From NCBI GenBank assembly GCA_017991475.1, contig JAGOQK010000005.1, forward strand, positions 1 to 59,834: 59,834 bases of DNA. The letters are read 5' to 3'. Both the position numbers and the translations under genes were made by a program. This stretch comes from Minisyncoccota bacterium (GTDB lineage Bacteria; Patescibacteriota; Minisyncoccia; Phycocordibacterales; PALSA-1337). Of this stretch, positions 11,406 to 48,071 are shown piece after piece; position 1 is the first letter of the stretch; each line of letters opens with the position of its first letter. The notes beneath the pieces are model-generated. The model was given only the letters and a program-made list of their open reading frames with translations. It did no database searches and was not told where the DNA came from.

Positions 11406-11527
11406 CACTCGCACGCTGCACAGCATATGCGCTCCGGAGAGGTCATGTTTAGGATTGTAAACTAGGCTTGATTGGCCTTATAAAGCATGACCTCTCCGGA
11501 GCGCATATGCTGTGCGGCGTGCGAGTG
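11406..11527. repeat. 122-bp inverted repeat (42-bp arms, one mismatch)
   Basis: Arms 11406-11447 and 11486-11527 match at 41 of 42 positions and flank a 38-base AT-rich centre. The arms begin CACTCGCACGC and contain CATATGCGCTCCGGAGAG. It fills the gap between divergent rpmE and the MFS gene. No open reading frame or T run explains it. Confidence 0.95.
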
Positions 11528-44455: not shown

Positions 44456-44470
44456 GGTTTTTCTTGTGTG

Positions 44471-44614
44471 TCATTCCCGCGAAGGCGGGAATCTAGGGTT
44501 ACGTTGATTATGAAGTTCAACTCACTGAAAAGTACAAAGGTTCTAACAATTCCTATTATAACTCAAATCTTACCTAAGCGGTTAAACCCTGGATTCCCGC
44601 CTTCGCGGGAATGA
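44471..44614. repeat. 144-bp MITE-like element with 28-bp terminal inverted repeats
   Basis: 44471-44498 and 44587-44614 match at 27 of 28 positions. Each contains ATTCCCGCGAAGGCGGGAAT, itself a palindrome of a type widespread in bacteria. The 88-base centre is AT-rich and non-coding. Confidence 0.9.
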
Positions 44615-44623
44615 CAGCACTAA

Positions 44624-47608: not shown

Positions 47609-47714
47609 ATCTTGTTTTTTCTCAAAAAAAGGAGGATTGGTTAGCTGTTCCCGTGCGGGATGTGCTTCCAATCGTCTATTTCTGCGGAAAACCTTCTTTT
47701 ACTAAGGTGAGAGT

Positions 47715-47743
47715 ATCCTAACAAATGCCTTTACAGAAGTCAA
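47715..47743 (-). promoter_or_regulatory. Promoter of the rpsN-secY unit
   Basis: On the minus strand: TTGACT (47738-47743), 17 bp, TGT then TAGGAT (47715-47720). The rpsS promoter has the same hexamers and spacing. Confidence 0.85.
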
Positions 47744-47751
47744 CAGCGTAC

Positions 47752-47921
47752 CCCCAAGCGGCACAGTATGTGTGTTTTCTGTATCTGCGGAACTCGCACT
47801 GTAACGATTACATGGCCCTTTTGACATTCAACCATGAACGGTCATGTCAAAATAGCCAGTAATCATTCAGTGCTCAGACAAGTCCTCGATACAGAAAACA
47901 CACATACTGTGCCGCTTGGGG
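47752..47921. repeat. 170-bp palindromic element
   Basis: Arms 47753-47786 and 47888-47921 are perfect 34-bp inverted repeats (CCCCAAGCGGCACAGTATGT...). Inner pairs add CACTG/CAGTG, GATTAC/GTAATC and TTTTGACAT/ATGTCAAAA. It lies 10 bp upstream of the rpsN -35. Confidence 0.93.
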
Positions 47922-47925
47922 CGGT

Positions 47926-47963
47926 GCTGACACTGTAATTCAAAGCTGACACTGTAATTCAAA
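47926..47963. repeat. Tandem direct repeat, 2 x 19 bp
   Basis: GCTGACACTGTAATTCAAA occurs twice without spacing, directly beside the 170-bp palindrome. Confidence 0.95.
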
Positions 47964-47972
47964 GTCGAAGAC

Positions 47973-48004
47973 AAAAAAGCCGCGTTGCCCCACACAACGC
48001 GGCT
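47973..48004 (-). terminator. Terminator of the 66-aa gene
   Basis: A 10-bp perfect stem (AGCCGCGTTG / CAACGCGGCT), 7-base loop, T run on the minus strand. Confidence 0.9.
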
Positions 48005-48071
48005 CACCCAACCCAACTCTCACCAACCACCACTCAGTTACCAGCCGAGTGGAATCTGTAGAATCAGTCAT

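Follow-up and report, generated by a model that had tools for sequence, protein, structure and literature searches.

A long palindrome upstream of rpsN as a probable copy of an undescribed family of gene-less mobile elements

A 170-bp palindrome directly upstream of rpsN in the genome of a Minisyncoccota bacterium very probably belongs to an undescribed family of short mobile palindromic elements that carry no genes. That the family is mobile we hold with the same high confidence. The best explanation of the data is that it behaves like the Rickettsia palindromic elements (RPEs), from whose published descriptions it is set apart by a conserved hairpin tip combined with locus-specific arms. Within this explanation, it is very likely that most surviving copies are intergenic or lie in tolerant loops of proteins. 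The rpsN-side copy itself landed just upstream of the rpsN promoter and probably has no function there.

The palindrome and its neighbourhood

The palindrome spans positions 47752–47921 of the window (the whole stretch of DNA that was analysed, 59,834 nucleotides). An earlier note, made from the letters of this DNA, had described a near-complete palindrome of 170 bp with perfect 34-bp outer arms, and both features were confirmed: the arms (47752–47785 and 47888–47921) are complementary at 34 of 34 positions, and folding of the single strand gave −66.9 kcal/mol compared with −25.5 ± 3.3 kcal/mol for shuffled sequences (z = −12.5). The palindrome is the longest perfect inverted repeat of the window, with 34 bp observed against a maximum of 14 bp in 20 Markov simulations of the window, and is far beyond chance. 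The earlier note had counted it among the longest palindromes present, which is correct, and had seen several inner arms; the inner part is an imperfect stem (15 bp, 87%). The element has no open reading frame of its own, as the note had said, although reading frames do pass through members of the family at other loci. The features of the region are as follows.

47752..47921, minus strand: whole palindromic element, 170 bp; the minus strand is the conserved, better-folding one
47888..47921, minus strand: 5′ arm, 34 nt, pairing perfectly with the 3′ arm; found in this form only in the rpsN-side copy
47870..47887, minus strand: conserved core motif A, GAGGACTTGTCTGAGCAC; 5′ side of an asymmetric internal loop
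47798..47869, minus strand: inner stem P2 and apical loop; paired changes among copies
47827..47844, minus strand: apical loop segment TGACCGTnnATGRTTGAA, common to the three copies of this genome
47785..47797, minus strand: conserved core motif B, GCGAGTTCCGCAG; 3′ side of the internal loop, its last base being the first of the 3′ arm
47752..47785, minus strand: 3′ arm, 34 nt
47926..47963, no strand assigned: two 19-bp tandem direct repeats adjoining the element, with nothing to show that they are part of it
47977..48005, minus strand: intrinsic-terminator-like hairpin upstream of the element
47715..47743, minus strand: rpsN promoter, TTGACT-17-TAGGAT; kept in relatives that lack the element

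Read along the minus strand, the order is the terminator-like hairpin (48005–47977), the tandem repeat, the palindrome, 8 nt, the promoter (47743–47715), the leader and rpsN (ATG at about 47608). The predicted terminator suggests that the element is not transcribed from the upstream gene. The −35 hexamer of rpsN starts at 47743, and the closeness of the palindrome to it that had been pointed out is real, although the measured spacing is 8 nt rather than 10 bp. The two adjoining 19-bp repeats are also as described, being identical copies (47926–47944 and 47945–47963). The suggestion that they arose as a by-product of the element did not hold up: nothing links the two, and other copies of the element show no direct repeats beyond chance.

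Two other palindromes were observed in the window. At 11406–11527, arms of 45 nt, longer than those beside rpsN but imperfect (96% complementary), enclose a 32-nt centre, and this palindrome is not matched by our covariance model of the family. At 44469–44616, beside ribosomal-protein genes, a TGTCATTCCCGCGAAGGCGGGAATC-type repeat is present twice in inverted orientation and so forms 32-nt arms.

A dispersed family with a conserved centre

When the bacterium's own genome (771 kb, 17 contigs) was searched at the DNA level, two more copies came to light, on contigs C14 and C2, similar only in the inner part. The size and gene content of the genome point to a patescibacterial lineage. The three copies share TCGAGGACTTGTCTGAG, TGACCGTnnATGrTTGAA and GCGAGTyCCGCAG, and the intervening and outer stems differ yet stay paired. 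A covariance model built from these three copies (R1) detected 34 copies in 14 genomes of the genus, this one included, and no match outside the genus among the 147 genomes searched. A second model (R2), built only from other genomes and without the three copies, recovered them at E values of 1e-21 to 1e-28. R2 matched about 90 places in 22 of the 34 genomes of the genus, and it gave a few matches in five other genera of the class. These places include eleven copies in one genome (G019), several with shared flanks that make them parts of larger repeats, and about nine copies of a second palindrome family in another (G033) that R2 also detects. All the genomes are draft metagenome assemblies, which can be chimeric at repeats. 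The family is thus a dispersed short palindromic repeat in several copies with no gene of its own, as RPEs are, and the further copies that the earlier note had proposed to look for are present, with two more in the same genome and 0–15 in each congener.

Every family member combines the conserved centre GAGGACTTGTCTGAGCG...GCGAGTTCCGCAG with long arms that are almost perfectly complementary and differ from copy to copy, and the total length is about 80–220 bp. The minimal core of the family is GAGGACTGTCTGAGCGnAGCGAGTTCCGCAG. In the shortest members the inner stem P2 shrinks to GCGNAGC, a sequence that forms an extraordinarily stable mini-hairpin in single-stranded DNA (PMC4686876). Covariation across the family was strong, with 451 double-changed cells compared with 130 in shuffles and a score of 0.59 compared with 0.16. 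The strand that carries GAGGACT folds better, and its stems contain 50 G·T pairs against 20 A·C pairs in an alignment that was itself fitted to the model. This strand bias is suggestive of a folded single strand, of DNA or RNA, as the active form.

Searches of wider collections returned little. No Rfam family scored above its gathering threshold, and the only hit, to MIR5998 (a model of a long microRNA hairpin), lay far below threshold and is spurious. An exact scan for the core motif in 85,000 species genomes gave 21 matches, about the number expected by chance, of which one (L007) is a clear family member. Phage and plasmid collections contained no match to the element; a related motif matched one IMG/VR contig (L005), without support from the model, and the minimal core matched none. 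A literature search found no description of such elements in Patescibacteria, which is not proof of their absence from it.

Copies inside protein genes, and their arms and cores

Sixteen copies lie within long open frames. NCBIfam names the host for 15 of them (PolA, DnaE, LepA, SecA, PyrG, Tgt, TsaD, TypA, RecJ, LeuS and LigA), whereas the host gene of the sixteenth, L028, has no NCBIfam name. The Tgt copies span three genera, the TypA copies come from two species and RecJ contains two copies in one gene. Like RPEs, these copies are inserted in frame into unrelated conserved protein genes. They sit in variable loops of their host proteins and use several reading frames of the core, and at the places tested the loops of orthologs that lack the element are shorter or otherwise different. 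In TypA, the same loop carries the element in two species in opposite orientations, which means independent insertion; in the majority of other genomes this loop is short. Two candidates are not counted among the sixteen. One (L065) was dropped as a genic copy as its spanning frame matched no protein family. The other (L060, G024:C50:7700-10800) has a frame that runs from dnaE into tgt through the core of the element, which is explained either by two copies having recombined or by an assembly error at the repeat; at least one join at an element is chimeric or recombinant.

The same loops of DnaE, SecA, PolA, TypA and TsaD (L124–L280) contain other in-frame repeat peptides in other genomes, which marks them as general insertion hotspots. 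DnaE of the bacterium studied here (L142) has the in-frame repeat peptide ASENEAPAEHGRTPFAE.

The strong covariation and the conserved unpaired segments could also be those of a structured non-coding RNA or RNA-level cis element, in which a transcribed palindrome binds a protein or small molecule through its internal loops, and the better folding of one strand with its excess of G·T over A·C pairs would be in keeping with this. We nevertheless consider an RNA function unlikely. Twelve of the 16 copies within genes lie in antisense orientation to their host (p = 0.08), which argues against a function of the transcript, and the rpsN-side copy lies between a predicted terminator and a promoter. 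In addition, the copies are scattered over unrelated genes, many congeners have none at all, and no Rfam family matches.

Arms and cores were also compared between copies. Among 55 copies, arm similarity was above chance within 18 bp of the core and not beyond (most G019 copies were excluded here, since several of them have flanks in common outside the arms, as parts of larger repeats). Arm positions 0–18 have a weak family consensus, which indicates that the arms are not wholly derived from the target. The dnaE copies of two species, G029 and G024, are 91% identical in the 3′ arm and 74% in the core, whereas the dnaE and lepA copies within G024 are 93% identical in the core and 59% in the 3′ arm. 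Arm sequence is thus tied to the locus and core sequence to the genome. The SecA copy of G009 and the copy in its L028 gene have cores of 91% identity and unrelated arms.

Individual loci illustrate these relationships. In tsaD, G025 reads HTELIKIEENFKYSLLG and G022 reads HTELVKVED-[insert]-FFRYILLG; here FFRY continues the native frame, FFR belongs to the 3′ arm, and G025 has no counterpart of the inverted 5′ arm. In orthologs of dnaE, lepA, secA and polA, the loops are too variable to decide which arm is native. The genomes offer no clean pair of near-identical relatives from before and after an insertion. In pyrG, G021 has the element, and its sister G015 lacks the core and keeps a short hairpin, in which paired changes give GGTGAA/TTCACC where the G021 arms have GGCGAA/TTCGCC. 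The G015 hairpin may be a remnant or a pre-existing target.

The second long-palindrome family of G033 (L095–L103, nine copies) was noted separately. Its core, about 100 bp long, hardly varies; the arms are specific to each copy, complement each other almost perfectly and in most cases end in RAGC. The cores are 3% apart and the arms 44% apart. Of 351 differences between arms, 252 have a matching change in the opposite arm, and the rest come largely from two copies with indels.

Such joint changes of both arms, in pyrG (G021/G015) and in the second G033 family, are also what would be seen if these were old palindromes that do not move, with arms kept perfect by template switching (quasipalindrome correction) and a core conserved as the seed of the hairpin. 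Template switching is known to create, repair and maintain perfect stems (PMC8794818). We regard this account as improbable, because it leaves unexplained the near-identical cores at different loci of one genome, the opposite orientations in one TypA loop and the absence of the element in relatives. Template switching may act on the arms after insertion, and in that role it would be part of the explanation that we prefer, that of a mobile family.

The rpsN locus, related elements and a possible mechanism

Among 28 rpsH–rpsN loci searched with the covariance model, the element occurs in the bacterium's own genome only and is absent from all 27 others. The relatives have the promoter (TTGAC...TCTGCTAGTATC) and the conserved leader without it. 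The earlier note had suggested looking for empty sites. The 27 rpsN loci without the element, its absence from other orthologous loci of relatives, the further copies in the genome and the variable copy number in congeners support the note's reading of a non-autonomous mobile element. Its other proposal, a binding region controlling ribosomal protein synthesis, could draw on the 8 nt between the element and the −35 hexamer, but is already largely refuted by the 27 loci with promoter and leader conserved and no element, and we consider regulation of rpsN or the ribosomal-protein operon by the element extremely improbable.

The rpsN leader drew attention in its own right. An RNA-like motif in it (47609–47706, minus strand, and L281–L308), GATTGGAAGC...GCTAACCAATC, is conserved in 27 of 27 aligned genomes; it surrounds a variable hairpin, is mostly preceded by ACCTTA and has no match in Rfam. 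Possibly it is an autoregulatory leader for a ribosomal protein (S8 or S14) that is not described in Rfam. In four congeners (L282, L288, L291 and L307), rpsN comes immediately after rplE, the arrangement of the usual spc operon; the bacterium studied here and most of the others have a break in the operon at this point.

RPEs (Ogata et al., as reviewed) are 105–150 bp long, have no genes and no known mobiliser, and occur in reduced genomes both between genes and in frame inside conserved protein genes; their terminal inverted repeats comprise about 12 contiguous pairs, they encode a conserved peptide and target-site duplication has not been established for them (PMC2229807, PMC10969869). Compared by description, our family resembles RPEs and the protein-coding palindromes of Wolbachia in being gene-less, in its intergenic and in-frame locations in conserved genes and in its reduced host genomes. 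Unlike RPEs as described, it conserves the tip of the hairpin, has nearly perfect, copy-specific arms of about 20–50 bp and uses several frames of the core.

Other known elements are less similar. Bacterial MITEs (Correia/NEMIS, ERIC, RUP and YPAL) have conserved terminal inverted repeats, often with TA ends, and direct target-site duplications (PMC2229807). The family resembles them as short non-autonomous inverted-repeat elements near and in genes, but its ends are its most variable part. We rejected a MITE of a DNA transposon as an explanation: the 54 copies compared show no direct target-site duplication, with repeat lengths close to the shuffled expectation, and arm identity is at chance more than 18 bp from the core. 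REP elements go with RAYT-type transposases and, like the family, are hairpins that may move as folded single-stranded DNA. They are palindromes of 20–40 bp with one end tagged by GTAG or CGTC (PMC3733652); no such shared tag was apparent by eye at the family's ends in boundary sequences and the alignment. Mitochondrial hairpin elements (double-hairpin elements and the RHE of sponges) are likewise small, dispersed and located between genes and in variable gene parts, with enzymes that are not known (PMC2800124), but they are mitochondrial and shorter and have other sequences. The coding palindromes in mitochondria of Nematomorpha, too, place long perfect inverted repeats within functional genes for proteins; in their case conserved native protein is encoded by both arms, and the abstract describes no dispersed common core (PMC6649704).

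How the elements might move can be outlined. An enzyme encoded elsewhere would recognise the conserved tip on the folded strand, as single-stranded DNA or RNA, and mobilise the element in trans; in the surroundings of the copies we found no transposase or other mobiliser and no recurrent gene, the neighbours being only housekeeping genes. The copy would then enter new DNA with no direct duplication of the target site. The arms would be made or renewed by fold-back (template-switch) copying, turning one flank into an inverted copy of the other. The combination of locus-specific arms with genome-specific cores suggests such rewriting of the arms from flanking DNA, and we put forward this arm-writing step tentatively. 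It is conceivable, if doubtful, that the family represents a mobile element of a new class: the hairpin tip alone would be inherited, and every insertion would write both arms anew from host DNA beside the target; fold-back synthesis would in that case give an inverted rather than a direct target-site duplication.

Protein-coding palindromes have so far been known chiefly from Rickettsia and Wolbachia. The same habit is now seen in seemingly unrelated bacteria with genomes of less than about 1 Mb, where it affects DNA polymerases I and III, SecA, LepA, TypA, DNA ligase and tRNA enzymes. This points to a common route by which reduced genomes gain insertions in their proteins, and the locus-specific arms and genome-specific cores of the family provide a sequence-based test of element movement.
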